43,680 nucleotides of DNA from Candidatus Erginobacter occultus. Its GTDB lineage: Bacteria; Auribacterota; Erginobacteria; Erginobacterales; Erginobacteraceae. The stretch spans positions 1-43,680 of the forward strand of contig JAVCCZ010000178.1 of the NCBI GenBank assembly GCA_030765265.1, given 5' to 3'. The notes beneath the pieces are model-generated. The model was not told the origin of the DNA, did not search any database, and saw nothing but the letters and a program-made list of their open reading frames with translations. Position numbers and translations under genes: made by a program. Below, piece after piece: positions 6,272 through 12,616 of this stretch. Position 1 is the first letter of the stretch; every line of letters starts with the position of its first letter.

Positions 6272-8278
6272 ATGAGAAAGCGGATCTGGATATATCTCGT
6301 CCCGGCCGTTTTCCTCGCCGCCGGGGCGGCCTGGCTGCTGCTGCAGGGAGGCAGGGTGGACCGGACCAACCTGCTTCTGATCACCCTCGATACCACCCGG
6401 GCCGACCATCTCGGCGTCTATGGTTACGGCCGGGCGCAAACCCCGGTCCTCGACTCGCTGGCCGGCCGGGGGACGGTCTTCACCCGCTTCTTCACCAACG
6501 TCCCCCTCACCCTCCCCGCCCACGCCACCATCCTGACCGGACGACTTCCGCCCGAACACGGTCTGCGGGTCAACGCGTCGGGACAGCTCCCCGGACAGAT
6601 CCCGACCCTGGCTGAATTCTTTTCCGGCGAGGACTACCGGACCGGAGCGTTCGTGGCCGCCTTCGTCCTCGACCGGAAGTTCGGCCTCAACCGCGGCTTC
6701 GAGGTTTACGACGACTACGGAGTTCCCGACAGTGACGAGATTTACGACGATTCGGCGATGTACCGCTACCGGCGGGGGAACGAAGTGGCCGACGCCGCCC
6801 TGGCCTGGCTGGAAGAGGACGACGGCCGGCCCTTCTTCTGCTGGGTCCACTTCTTCGACCCCCACCACCCCTACTACTTCCCTCCCCCGCCCGGGGAGGG
6901 GGTGGAGGGGGCCTATGACCGGGAGATCGCCTTTATGGACTCCCAGGTCGGAAGACTGCTCGACTTTCTCCGGCAGCGGGGACTGGAGGAGGAGACAGTC
7001 GTGATCGCTCTCGGCGACCACGGGGAGGGGTTGGGCGACCACGGGGAGGACGAACACGGGCTGCTCCTCTACAGCCCGGTGACGCGGGTGCCGTTGATTG
7101 CGGCCCTCCCCCGCCGGGAGAGCGGTCCCGAGAAGGTCGAAACCCTCCTCTCCACCGCCGACCTCTTCCCCACCGTCATCGAACTTTTCGGCAAAAAGCC
7201 CCCGGCCGGGATCTCCGGACGGTCCTTCGCTCCCGCCCTGGCCGGAAAGCCGATGGAAGACGGCGAAATCTACCTGGAGACCGAGTTCCCCTTCACCGAG
7301 TACGGCTGGAGTCCCCTGGCCGGATTGGTTTCCGGAGAGTGGAAATACATCCGGGGACCGAACAAGGAGCTCTACAACCTGGCCGACGATCCCGGCGAGA
7401 CCGTCAACCTGGCCGGCCGGGAACCCGGCCGGGTGGGGCGGATGGAGGCCGGGCTGGCCGCGGTCGAAACCTCGATGGATATCCGGGAAGCCGGGGAGGC
7501 CGAACTGGGGGAACGGGAACGGGCGCTTTTAGAGAGCCTCGGCTACCTGGGCACCGGCGGGACCGCGGTCCGCAAGGAGAACGGCCTCCGAAACCCGGCC
7601 GAGGCCATTGGACTGCGGACGGAGTTCATCGCCGCGATGGACCTCTTCCACCGGGGAAAGAGCGCGGAAGCTGAGCGTAGACTGAAACGGCTGATCGATC
7701 AGAGCCCGGAGAGCTACATCTTCCGCTTCCGCCTGGCCCGGCTCTACTATGATGAGGAACGGCTGGAAGAGGCGGCGGCCGCCTTCCGGGGACTCGCCGT
7801 AAGCTTCCCCGGGGAGTTTCGGACTCACTACAACCTGGGCAAGACCCTCAATCGCCTCGGCCGTTACCGGGAGGCGATCGCCGAACTGGAACTGTCCCTG
7901 GAGATCGACCCCGAAGAGACGGCGGGCTGGAACAACCTGGGGATCGCGTTTCTCAAAACAGGGAGGTTGGAGGAAGCGATCTCGACCTTCCAGCGGTCGA
8001 TCGGGATCGACGAGCGCCAGCTCGATCCTCATAACAACCTCGGCAACGCCCTGCTGGCCCTCGGCCGGGTCCGGCCGGCGGCAGCCTCCTTCGCCCGGGC
8101 GGTGGAGATCGATCCCGAATTCTTCGAGGGACGATTCAACCTCGGCCTGACCCTGGTCCGGCTGGGGCGAAACCGGGAAGCGGCGGCGCAGTTCGAGCAA
8201 GCGGTCAAACTCCGGCCGGACTTCCTCCCCGCCCGCCGGCAGCGCGACGAGGCCCTCCGCCGGGCCGGGGAAGGCTGA
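6272..8278 (+). CDS. membrane-anchored sulfatase-fold (alkaline phosphatase superfamily) protein with TPR tail
   Basis: A 668-residue protein. Residues 5-24 form an N-terminal signal anchor. Residues ~30-420 form a sulfatase/alkaline-phosphatase-superfamily domain: the metal-binding start LLLITLDTTRADHLG (Asp40), the nucleophile region PLTLPAHATILTG (80-90), and the late metal site ALGDHGEGLGDHG. At the position of the sulfatase formylglycine Cys/Ser there is Thr80, and the CxPSR motif reads TLPAH, so this is probably not a formylglycine sulfatase; a phosphatase or phosphotransferase using Thr is possible. Residues ~440-668 contain at least four TPR units (GEFRTHYNLGKTLNRLGRY, GWNNLGIAFLKTGRLEEA, PHNNLGNALLALGR). 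Relatives often sit in surface-glycan or sorting loci. The start has no good ribosome site. The substrate cannot be inferred. Confidence 0.88.
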   Translation: MRKRIWIYLVPAVFLAAGAAWLLLQGGRVDRTNLLLITLDTTRADHLGVYGYGRAQTPVLDSLAGRGTVFTRFFTNVPLTLPAHATILTGRLPPEHGLRVNASGQLPGQIPTLAEFFSGEDYRTGAFVAAFVLDRKFGLNRGFEVYDDYGVPDSDEIYDDSAMYRYRRGNEVADAALAWLEEDDGRPFFCWVHFFDPHHPYYFPPPPGEGVEGAYDREIAFMDSQVGRLLDFLRQRGLEEETVVIALGDHGEGLGDHGEDEHGLLLYSPVTRVPLIAALPRRESGPEKVETLLSTADLFPTVIELFGKKPPAGISGRSFAPALAGKPMEDGEIYLETEFPFTEYGWSPLAGLVSGEWKYIRGPNKELYNLADDPGETVNLAGREPGRVGRMEAGLAAVETSMDIREAGEAELGERERALLESLGYLGTGGTAVRKENGLRNPAEAIGLRTEFIAAMDLFHRGKSAEAERRLKRLIDQSPESYIFRFRLARLYYDEERLEEAAAAFRGLAVSFPGEFRTHYNLGKTLNRLGRYREAIAELELSLEIDPEETAGWNNLGIAFLKTGRLEEAISTFQRSIGIDERQLDPHNNLGNALLALGRVRPAAASFARAVEIDPEFFEGRFNLGLTLVRLGRNREAAAQFEQAVKLRPDFLPARRQRDEALRRAGEG

Positions 8279-9566: not shown

Positions 9567-9689
9567 TTGATACCTCTTTACTTTTAATCCTGAATCGGCA
9601 TACTACTGCCTTCGCGGAATAATTAAAGGGAAAATCCGCGCCGCCGGAACGGCTTCCTTCCCGGCTCAAGCTTTAAAGAGGATAACCGT

Positions 9690-11105
9690 ATGCTCACCGC
9701 CGCCCAATTTTATCAAGACCCGGAGGTCCAGGAAAGAATCGCCGAGTACTGCGGAGGGACCGCCCGGGAACCCGAACTCTGTACCGCCGAGTACATCGTC
9801 GGTTACGGGGAGTCCCTCCTGGGGATCCCGGCCCCCGAACCCTACGTCTCCACCCCGCCGGAAGGCTTTAACTCCATCCTGGAAAGAGGGCTCGACATCT
9901 TCCGGTCGCTCTGGGATAAATCCCACGTCCTCGGGGTGCTCGACATCGAATACTTCAACCTCGACTACCCGGGCGAGGTTTACTACGACCAGGTCAAGAC
10001 TTTCGAAAAGCTGGAACCAATTTACGGTTCGATTATGGAGATCTTCCGCGGTTACGGGATCGTGCCGCTGACCATTATGACCGGACAGGGGTACCACTTT
10101 TCCTTCCAGGTCCAGTCCGGAACCCGGGCGTCCCTGATGCTGGAAGATGTCGGCTGCCTTAACGGCTCGCTGGAGGAAAAGTACCGGGGAAAAATAAGCA
10201 AGCGGCACCGCCCGGTCTCGCCCCGTTACGGGCGTGCCTTCGACGGGATGGGCCGGGTGATGGAGCACCTGGTCCACCGGATTATCCGGGAGACCTCCGA
10301 CCGGACCGATCTCCCCCTGGTGATCACCGACGTGGCGATCGGCTCCCGGAAACACGGGCGGGAAGGCGTCTCCCTCGACCTCTCCTGCTTTGGCGACCCG
10401 GTCTATATGCGCGACTGCCGCTGCGCTTTTTCCACCCATCAGAAACACAAGGTCCAGCGCTGGAAGGTCGGCGACGCCATCGCCGACGGGACCCCGGTCC
10501 AGATCGCCGTCCCCCGGAAGAACCTCTCCCTGGCTGAGACCATCTCGCTGCGCCGCCACTTCCGCCGCGCCGCCGAGTACGCCCGGACCGTCCACTGCCT
10601 GATCCCCGACTTTTCCGTGAATTTCAAGAAAGTGATCAATGACTACCTCGGCTCCGATCTTTACCGCTTTCACCGGTGGTTCGACGGCGAAAAACCCCAC
10701 CCCCGGGGCGAATGGGAGGAGACTTACGACCGGATGAACTACCGCGACGTGCCCCCCTGCGTCCGGCGGCCGCTGGAGACCCCCAACGACCTGCTGCTGA
10801 AACCGACCAATCTCCAGACCCTGACCCGCTGTCTGCTGGCCCTCGGCTGGCACCCCAAGCATATCGCCGGCCTGGTCACCTCCCGCTGGATCGAAGGCCC
10901 GAACTGGCCGCCGGACCAGTGGAAGCATTTCGACGCCGAGTCACGGGCGACATTTTACGTCCGGACCTTCGCCGGGCTCCTGGCGGACGGGCTCGACGAC
11001 CTGCGTGATCACAACTGCGTCTCCCACCAGGAGAAGGGCTACTGTGTCGAACCCTTCTGCGGCTACAACCTGGCCGACTACCGGTGGGAGGGAGGAATGA
11101 GTTAA
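9690..11105 (+). CDS. archaeo-eukaryotic-type primase with PriL-like Fe-S domain, copy 1
   Basis: A 471-residue protein, start supported by AGAGG ten bases upstream. I read it as an archaeo-eukaryotic primase (AEP) core joined to a PriL C-terminal-like domain. Motif I: VLDIEYFN (Asp85, Glu87). Motif II: MTGQGYHFSF (Gly132-His136), matching the SGxGxH consensus. Motif III: SLDLSCFGDP (Asp230), followed by RDCRCAFSTHQKHKV, which fits the (R)..(P).SxHxKT segment of PriS. The C-terminal part has PPC (Cys357), a helical block with LLALGWHPKHIAGL, then Cys443, Cys452 and Cys457 (HNCVSHQEKGYC...C). This order, C-85-C-8-C-4-C, resembles the iron-sulfur ligands of PriL. The expected role is RNA or DNA primer synthesis or polymerase activity. 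It is followed at once by a paralog with identical architecture. Motif assignment is by eye, without a profile search. Confidence 0.7.
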   Translation: MLTAAQFYQDPEVQERIAEYCGGTAREPELCTAEYIVGYGESLLGIPAPEPYVSTPPEGFNSILERGLDIFRSLWDKSHVLGVLDIEYFNLDYPGEVYYDQVKTFEKLEPIYGSIMEIFRGYGIVPLTIMTGQGYHFSFQVQSGTRASLMLEDVGCLNGSLEEKYRGKISKRHRPVSPRYGRAFDGMGRVMEHLVHRIIRETSDRTDLPLVITDVAIGSRKHGREGVSLDLSCFGDPVYMRDCRCAFSTHQKHKVQRWKVGDAIADGTPVQIAVPRKNLSLAETISLRRHFRRAAEYARTVHCLIPDFSVNFKKVINDYLGSDLYRFHRWFDGEKPHPRGEWEETYDRMNYRDVPPCVRRPLETPNDLLLKPTNLQTLTRCLLALGWHPKHIAGLVTSRWIEGPNWPPDQWKHFDAESRATFYVRTFAGLLADGLDDLRDHNCVSHQEKGYCVEPFCGYNLADYRWEGGMS

Positions 11106-11131
11106 AAGTTAAAAGTTCAAAGTTCGAAGTG
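11101..11131 (+). repeat. phrase repeat GTTAAAAGTTAAAAGTTCAAAGTT
   Basis: Degenerate tandem copies of AAAAGTT/CAAAGTT begin in the stop codon of the first primase-like gene. If translated in frame they would give an artificial N-terminus (NELKVKSSKFEV) to the second. A similar array lies at 30812-30850. Confidence 0.6.
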
Positions 11132-11188
11132 ACCAAGACAGCTAAGATAATCAAAGCAAAGCCCGAGTGGCCGGCGTCTTCCCCGGTG

Positions 11189-12616
11189 ATGTCGAGGGAA
11201 CAGTTTGAGGCAATCCGGGAATTTTACCGGACTAAGGCGGTCCGGAAGCGGATCGCCGAGTTCTGCGGGGGAGAGACTTTCACCTGCGAGTACCTGGTCG
11301 GCTTCGGCGAGTACCTGGCCCGCAACGGCTATCACCGGCCCCTGAGGCTGACCAACCGGCCGGAGGAACTGGGCGGTCTGATGGAGGACGGACTCGACCT
11401 TTTCCGCGCGGTCTGGGACCGGAAATCGACCCTGGCGGTCTGGGACATCGAGTACTTCAACCTCGATACCTGGCAGGGTCTCTATTCCAACCAGCTGACT
11501 TACTTCGAGCTGATGGAGCCGGTCCACCGGGCGATCGACTCCCTGCTGAAGGGTTACGGGATCCCCCACCTCAACGACTGCACCTCTTCGGGGTACCATT
11601 ACATATCCCGGATCCCCTTCGCTTCTCCCGTCCACCGGAAGCTGGAACGGATCGGGACCCTGGAAGAGACCCTGAAGACTAAATACGCCCTGGTCCCGGG
11701 GGGCGACCAGAAGCGGACCCGCCCCCTCCCCCTGCGGGCGGGCCGGGGTTATAGCGGGATCGGGCGGCTCCACGAATTCTTATCCCACCTGGTCATCGAG
11801 AAAACCCGGAACAATTCCCCCCTCCCGGTCACCATCTCCGACACCGCGGTCTTGAGAAACGGGCGCGGCCGGGAAGGATTGAGCCTGGATATCACCCAGT
11901 ACGCCGACCCCCTTTATATGCGGGACATCCGGACCACCTTCTCCACCCACCAAAAACACAAGGTCTACATCGGCCAGGTCGGGGAAGAACTGGCCCGGAG
12001 GCTGCCGGTTTTCGCCACCGTCCCCCGAAACGACCTCTCCTACCGGGAACTCTTCCGGATCCGGAAAGACCTGAAACGGGCCGCCGGCTACGCCGCCGAA
12101 TGTTCGGGGGTCATCCCCGACGCCGCCGCCGGCTGGGAGAAAGTGATCGCCGACTACCGCCGTTCGAAACTCTTCGCCTTCCACCGGGAATTCGACCGGG
12201 TCTCCCCAGAACCGCCGGAGACCTGGCCCAAAACCTACTGGCAACTGGACCTCGACTCCCTCCCCCCCTGCGCCGCCCACTCGATCCGGAATTTCTCCTG
12301 GGGTATGCTCAACCCGACCAGTATCCGCAACCTCTGCCGGGTCCTCTTCGCCCTCGGCTGGAACCCCAAGCACATCGCCGGACTGATCTCTTCCTACTAC
12401 CAGTCCCGGCCGGGGTGGAATACCGACTGGATGAAGTACCATAGCGAGACCCGGGCCAACTTCTGGTGCCGGGTTTACTGCGGCCTGATCGTGACCGGCA
12501 ACGACGATCTCTCCGACTTCAACTGCCGCTCCCACCAGGAAAAGGGATACTGCCCCGCCCACTGGTGCGGGTGCCGGCTGGAAAAACTCCGGGAAAAGAT
12601 TCTCGAGCGGATATGA
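11189..12616 (+). CDS. archaeo-eukaryotic-type primase with PriL-like Fe-S domain, copy 2
   Basis: A 475-residue paralog of the preceding gene. I chose ATG 11189 (MSREQFEAIREFYR) because alignment with copy 1 begins there (FYxx...RIAEFCGG against FYxx...RIAEYCGG); an in-frame GTG at 11084 would translate the repeat and overlap copy 1. Catalytic motifs are intact: VWDIEYFN (motif I), CTSSGYHYI (motif II), SLDITQYADP (motif III) and DIRTTFSTHQKHKV. The PriL-like block has PPC, LFALGWNPKHIAGL and FNC...GYC....C with spacing C-84-C-8-C-4-C, plus one extra Cys (WCGC). Motif II has SSG where copy 1 has GQG. Because both copies keep all catalytic residues, both are probably active. The gap from copy 1 is only 83 bases, so they are probably co-transcribed. 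No helicase, integrase or other replication gene flanks them. Confidence 0.68.
   Translation: MSREQFEAIREFYRTKAVRKRIAEFCGGETFTCEYLVGFGEYLARNGYHRPLRLTNRPEELGGLMEDGLDLFRAVWDRKSTLAVWDIEYFNLDTWQGLYSNQLTYFELMEPVHRAIDSLLKGYGIPHLNDCTSSGYHYISRIPFASPVHRKLERIGTLEETLKTKYALVPGGDQKRTRPLPLRAGRGYSGIGRLHEFLSHLVIEKTRNNSPLPVTISDTAVLRNGRGREGLSLDITQYADPLYMRDIRTTFSTHQKHKVYIGQVGEELARRLPVFATVPRNDLSYRELFRIRKDLKRAAGYAAECSGVIPDAAAGWEKVIADYRRSKLFAFHREFDRVSPEPPETWPKTYWQLDLDSLPPCAAHSIRNFSWGMLNPTSIRNLCRVLFALGWNPKHIAGLISSYYQSRPGWNTDWMKYHSETRANFWCRVYCGLIVTGNDDLSDFNCRSHQEKGYCPAHWCGCRLEKLREKILERI

Follow-up and report, generated by a model that had tools for sequence, protein, structure and literature searches.

A tandem pair of archaeo-eukaryotic-type primase-polymerases with a likely PriL-like four-cysteine domain in bacterial chromosomes

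RESULTS

Gene pair and conserved motifs

The window analyzed here, a 43,680-nt stretch of contig JAVCCZ010000178.1 from Candidatus Erginobacter occultus (Auribacterota), contains two neighboring genes, A and B, whose open reading frames (ORFs) were confirmed at the given location (Table 1). A encodes 471 amino acids, B probably 475, and the two proteins are 43% identical. The B ORF had been listed from a GTG at 11084, overlapping A and adding 35 residues relative to the ATG at 11189. This longer reading is probably wrong, because its residues 1-28 have pLDDT < 50 in the AlphaFold2 model, the homologue alignment starts ~40 residues into it, and the ATG gives a normal A-B gap (83 nt, without gene overlap; 6-30 nt in most relatives by start comparison). 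We therefore place the true start of B, with good probability, at ATG 11189, leaving the 35 extra residues untranslated.

Table 1. Positions of the gene pair, its motifs and linked features (window coordinates unless a locus is named).
Feature	Location	Strand	Basis
Weak match to a sigma-70-like promoter, upstream of A	9595..9623	+	Consensus scan alone, 9/12, near chance level
Gene A, AEP primase-polymerase with C-terminal four-Cys domain	9690..11105	+	ORF, homologues, AlphaFold2, PDB folds
A motif I, DIE 85-87 (D85, E87)	9942..9950	+	Invariant among homologues
A motif II, TGQGYH 131-136	10080..10097	+	T131, G134 near-invariant
A motif III, SLD 228-230 (D230)	10371..10379	+	D230 invariant
A R-x2-R-x3-S-x-H-x-K segment, R241-K252 (S-x-H-x-K 248-252)	10410..10445	+	Conserved
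A putative PriL-CTD-like domain; Cys codons 10758, 11016, 11043, 11058	10752..11072	+	DNA_primase_lrg below cut-off, Cys spacing
Gene B, A paralogue downstream, same strand (probable start)	11189..12616	+	ORF, start comparison, AEP fold
B motif I, DIE 121-123 (numbering from 11084)	11444..11452	+	Homologue alignment
B motif II, TSSGYH 167-172 (numbering from 11084)	11582..11599	+	Homologue alignment
B motif III, SLD 267-269 (numbering from 11084)	11882..11890	+	Homologue alignment
B R-x2-R-x3-S-x-H-x-K; S-x-H-x-K 287-291 (numbering from 11084)	11921..11956	+	Homologue alignment
B four-Cys domain; Cys codons 12269, 12524, 12551, 12566	12263..12568	+	Conserved in Auribacterota and UBP18 B
Endonuclease-IV-like gene downstream of A in relatives	L043:4115-4957, L044:10402-11244, L045:3664-4506, L046:8054-8908, L084:4640-5482

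The three archaeo-eukaryotic primase (AEP) motifs and the S-x-H-x-K segment are present in both proteins as the initial annotation had described. D85, E87, D214, D230, S248 and K252 are identical in 58/58 aligned homologues from several phyla, R241/R244 are kept in all 58 except the very diverged L059 row, and the motif II histidine H136 is found in 33/35 A and 22/22 B sequences, with Asn in L051 and L053. The catalytic residues are intact in the A and B clades of this 58-row alignment, and the invariance of the catalytic acids confirms the earlier description of two catalytically intact copies; dN/dS of ~0.10-0.22 indicates purifying selection on both. A pattern of AEP motifs to which human PriS also conforms was matched by 56 of 75 family members, and by none of 692 other proteins and 4,234 other ORFs of the same loci. 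This conservation and specificity speak against a chance resemblance. Human PriS has YSGRRGVH as the counterpart of motif II, where A has TGQGYH, and HLLKSPFSVHPKTG, comparable to the R-x2-R-x3-S-x-H-x-K segment that follows motif III in A and B.

Fold assignment

Searches of Pfam, NCBIfam, PHROGs and PADLOC returned no family match for A or B. AlphaFold2 models were computed from alignments of 49 (A) and 38 (B) sequences, with mean pLDDT of 94.1 and 90.2, respectively, and were used as queries for a PDB fold search. The top matches of both models were AEPs, the leaders at probability 1.00: the M. tuberculosis LigD polymerase domain, M. smegmatis Prim-PolC, CAPP, the pRN1 primase, human PriS and PrimPol were recovered, at modest E-values (4e-3 for A; 9.4e-4 at best for B, to Prim-PolC). 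The AEP identity proposed from the sequence is thus borne out at the level of predicted structure, including the suggested comparison of the N-terminus with PriS. An RRM-like catalytic fold is accompanied by the DxD/E of motif I, the His of motif II and the Asp of motif III. No primase was recovered when a profile of the entire family was searched against the PDB, and hhalign against human PriS as a single sequence performed no better than controls, so that no PriS match was significant by sequence (the fragments of human PriL and PriS used as queries matched PDB chains exactly). We consider the membership of A and B in the AEP superfamily fairly firm.

C-terminal four-cysteine domain

The four-Cys block occurs with exactly the spacings first noted, at residues 357/443/452/457 of A (gaps of 85, 8 and 4) and 396/481/490/495 of B (numbering from 11084; gaps of 84, 8 and 4). 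All four Cys are present in every A copy (one A row ends at a contig end); they are kept in the B copies of Auribacterota and UBP18 and are all absent in the Elusimicrobia/Hydrogenedentes B clade, the B copy of KR13 being the single case of partial loss. Their order and spacing fit archaeal PriL: in Sulfolobus PriL, PPC...C-x8-C-x3-C precedes NPL, and the A/B family shows PPC...C-x8-C-x4-C-G-x-N-L. The ligands of yeast PriL are C336, C417, C434 and C474 (PMC2852410).

Profile comparisons gave sub-threshold matches in the same direction. DNA_primase_lrg (PF04104) was the best of two Pfam matches to the family consensus (residues 336-416, E 0.23; 11.2 bits against a Pfam cut-off of 22.4) and was matched in two family members (best E 0.02); it had no match among the proteins of the window's own genome. 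Sulfolobus PriL ranked second when the C-terminal profile was searched against PDB (E 0.38). Such whole-library E-values understate the support, because PriL had been named beforehand in the initial annotation. Comparisons by hhalign with single human and Sulfolobus PriL and PolpTN2 were no better than controls, as expected with single sequences as templates, and no PriL match was significant by sequence alone. What stands of the proposed PriL-like Fe-S domain is the Cys spacing together with these matches; they lie below the Pfam cut-off, and only the CTD-like part is present, the PriL N-terminal domain not being seen in A or B. We regard a PriL-type Fe-S assignment, made from sequence patterns, as likely and moderately supported.

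Distribution and duplication

Relatives were found in 11 of 44 genomes of Auribacterota, as a tandem A-B pair in 11/11 of these. Relatives occur at 31 loci of a species-representative genome collection, labeled Auribacterota, Euphemobacter, Tritonobacter, Elusimicrobia, Hydrogenedentes, Lindowbacteria, Schekmanbacteria, Wallbacteria, Thermodesulfobacteriota and others, and the tandem recurs in UBP18-like genomes and some Elusimicrobia. In a maximum-likelihood tree of 58 rows, which largely tracks host groups, the 22 second copies form one clade (support 96/100) apart from the first copies, spanning Auribacterota, UBP18-like genomes, Elusimicrobia and Hydrogenedentes; some rows have long branches, and the order inside the second-copy clade is unsure. 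Read in this way, the sequences indicate that A and B stem from one ancient duplication.

Linkage differs between groups. Six genomes of one phylum have both A and B, unlinked. In another phylum, B accompanies A in 10 of 15 A-bearing genomes (side by side in seven) and is missing from 5/15, and six further genomes hold only a diverged Cys-less member. Part of the Elusimicrobia have a B that is unlinked and without Cys.

Several loci showed individual peculiarities. The B copy of genome G062 (L049:3279-4616) contains an in-frame TAA and those of G409 and G410 were flagged with one stop each, which may reflect pseudogenes or sequencing errors. One Hydrogenedentes genome has, in addition to its A copy (L033), two very diverged members without Cys arranged in tandem (L059:1587-4472), and lone diverged Cys-less members (L075-L080) occur in larger Elusimicrobiota-group genomes without A. 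The gene upstream of the L076 member was considered as a further paralogue and rejected, having no match to the family.

Genomic context

In the window, the pair has as neighbors a DUF401/GntP-like permease gene and a small ORF that matched no family; a sulfatase domain fused to TPR repeats (6272-8278) and a TRL-like family protein (Pfam PF13146; 13301-13732) were also seen. Flanks in Auribacterota vary and consist of unrelated genes, and the neighbors of relatives are housekeeping genes, e.g. ClpC, PhoH, thiamine and cell-wall genes. In several Elusimicrobia, the gene immediately upstream of A encodes a CRP-like regulator (L044:8269-8949, L086:8631-9296, L087:2741-3439, L088:247-600); a redox link via FNR-type regulators was discarded, as these neighbors show no obvious N-terminal Cys set.

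Directly downstream of A in an Endomicrobiia-like group (five loci, Table 1) is an endonuclease-IV-superfamily protein that keeps the nine zinc ligands of E. coli Nfo (eight by alignment and the ninth, HxPY, by eye). In Schekmanbacteria, Wallbacteria and two Thermodesulfobacteriota/Proteobacteria-labeled genomes (L047, L048, L051, L053), the gene immediately upstream of A encodes a different member of this superfamily, with D229 replaced by T. The Auribacterota loci have no endonuclease-IV-like neighbor. DnaG was found in 42/44 genomes of Auribacterota and Ku in 0/44.

DISCUSSION

Proposed function and alternatives

Our main reading, to which we give a probability of roughly 0.55, is that this chromosomal two-gene operon encodes paired Fe-S AEP primase-polymerases, likely acting as a heterodimer in repair or damage tolerance. 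Each chain would combine an N-terminal PriS/LigD-like catalytic domain with a C-terminal helical domain resembling the PriL Fe-S domain. D85, E87 and D230 would form a two-metal site, with H136 and the R-R-S-H-K segment contacting nucleotides, and the four Cys would most likely bind a [4Fe-4S] cluster that helps to place the initiating nucleotide or the primer 5' end. Since DnaG is present in nearly all Auribacterota genomes, the pair probably does not serve as the replicative primase; with replicative priming left to DnaG, it would most likely re-prime or fill short gaps. A role in DNA repair or lesion tolerance is preferred by analogy, because DnaG is present, Ku is absent, some relatives have an endonuclease-IV-like neighbor, and there is precedent in mycobacterial Prim-PolC, which works in excision repair with ligase C (PMC10345425), and in archaeal PriSL, which participates in break repair (PMC12019639).

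The heterodimer suggested in the initial annotation draws indirect support from the ancient duplication, the operon layout and the co-occurrence of A and B, while the genomes with A alone count against it. These last, with the unlinked, Cys-less B of part of the Elusimicrobia, would suit separate enzymes that divide their tasks without forming a complex (priming versus extending, or one per lesion type); we hold this possible, yet the tandem operon in distant lineages and the co-occurrence speak for cooperation. Somewhat more doubtful is that the same AEP core carries, in place of a PriL-type [4Fe-4S] domain, a helical domain that resembles PriCT and holds zinc in a structural role. A relationship between PriCT-1/2 domains and the Fe-S domain of PriL has been proposed (PMC5862659), and zinc and Fe-S sites are indistinguishable by sequence. 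In hhalign comparisons, the C-terminal profile found its best match outside the family in PolpTN2 residues 327-388 (probability 5%), a stretch that separates the AEP region of that protein from its PriL-like region and in which PMC5862659 puts PriCT-1. Against this stand the PPC...C-x8-C-x4-C order and the DNA_primase_lrg match, which fit PriL, and the conservation and loss of the four Cys together, with one partial exception.

Two further readings concern mobility and conflict. Most of the bacterial AEPs described with a PriCT or PriL-like domain belong to mobile elements (PMC5862659), which would suit a domesticated or resident mobile-element replication protein. We consider this improbable: searches of 50,697 phage records, 72,556 plasmids and the viral contigs of IMG/VR turned up no relatives, integrase, helicase and relaxase genes were absent among the neighbors examined, and the tandem is conserved across genera of one phylum, which upholds the chromosomal, non-mobile setting first proposed. 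An antiphage or conflict system using an AEP, also raised at the outset, has a parallel in CRISPR-linked AEPs (PMC8211822) and is less probable still, a slim chance at best, as PADLOC matched neither the proteins nor the tested neighbors, the surroundings are stable and housekeeping in nature, and the tree largely follows host groups.

Returning to the paired repair enzyme, we tentatively offer a broader proposal that we hold to be rather less likely than its simpler form: A and B may be a vertically kept bacterial counterpart of the two-subunit archaeal/eukaryotic primase, in which active Fe-S AEP paralogues act as one enzyme, one partner being Cys-less in some lineages, and which is elsewhere coupled to an endonuclease-IV-like phosphodiesterase as a dedicated excision/re-priming repair pathway.

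Novelty

Most of the bacterial AEPs described to date are repair polymerases of the LigD/Prim-PolC type, enzymes linked to CRISPR or proteins of mobile elements. PriL has been called nearly exclusive to the chromosomal primases of archaea and eukaryotes (PMC5862659). A family like that of A and B is not mentioned in the sections of the AEP literature considered, including those of PMC5862659 and PMC10345425, and a search of one open-access library, which is not proof, found no paper linking AEPs with Elusimicrobia or Auribacterota. The catalytic fold is known, as probably is the type of C-terminal domain; the combination, host range and pairing are new. Taken together, these genes would represent an AEP family of bacterial chromosomes that carries a PriL-like domain, has been retained as an ancient pair and has escaped the protein family libraries. 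The family is relevant to how the PriS-PriL primase originated, and its members are short single-chain proteins for probing the role of the primase Fe-S cluster.

Comparison with known systems

Mycobacterial Prim-PolC and the LigD polymerase domain, which scored best in the PDB fold searches with A and B, are likewise bacterial and chromosomal. To our knowledge they lack a four-Cys domain; both partner with ligases, and LigD also with Ku, the component of Ku-LigD end joining that is missing from the Auribacterota genomes. PolpTN2 of the Thermococcus plasmid pTN2 (PrimPol-PV1) resembles A and B in joining an AEP and a PriL-like four-Cys domain on one chain, and the purified protein is brownish (PMC3973330). 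It is an archaeal plasmid protein of about twice the length that also contains PriCT-1 and winged-helix regions and has Gln in its motif II, whereas A and B are bacterial, shorter, paired, carry His in motif II and lie on chromosomes rather than on mobile elements. A PriS-PriL fusion has been reported in Nanoarchaeum equitans (PMC3973330); compared by description only, it is archaeal and not reported as a pair. With archaeal/eukaryotic PriS-PriL, A and B share the AEP motifs and a PriL-CTD-like Cys block, but carry both parts on one chain, and they are two catalytically intact paralogues where PriS-PriL consists of one catalytic and one regulatory subunit.
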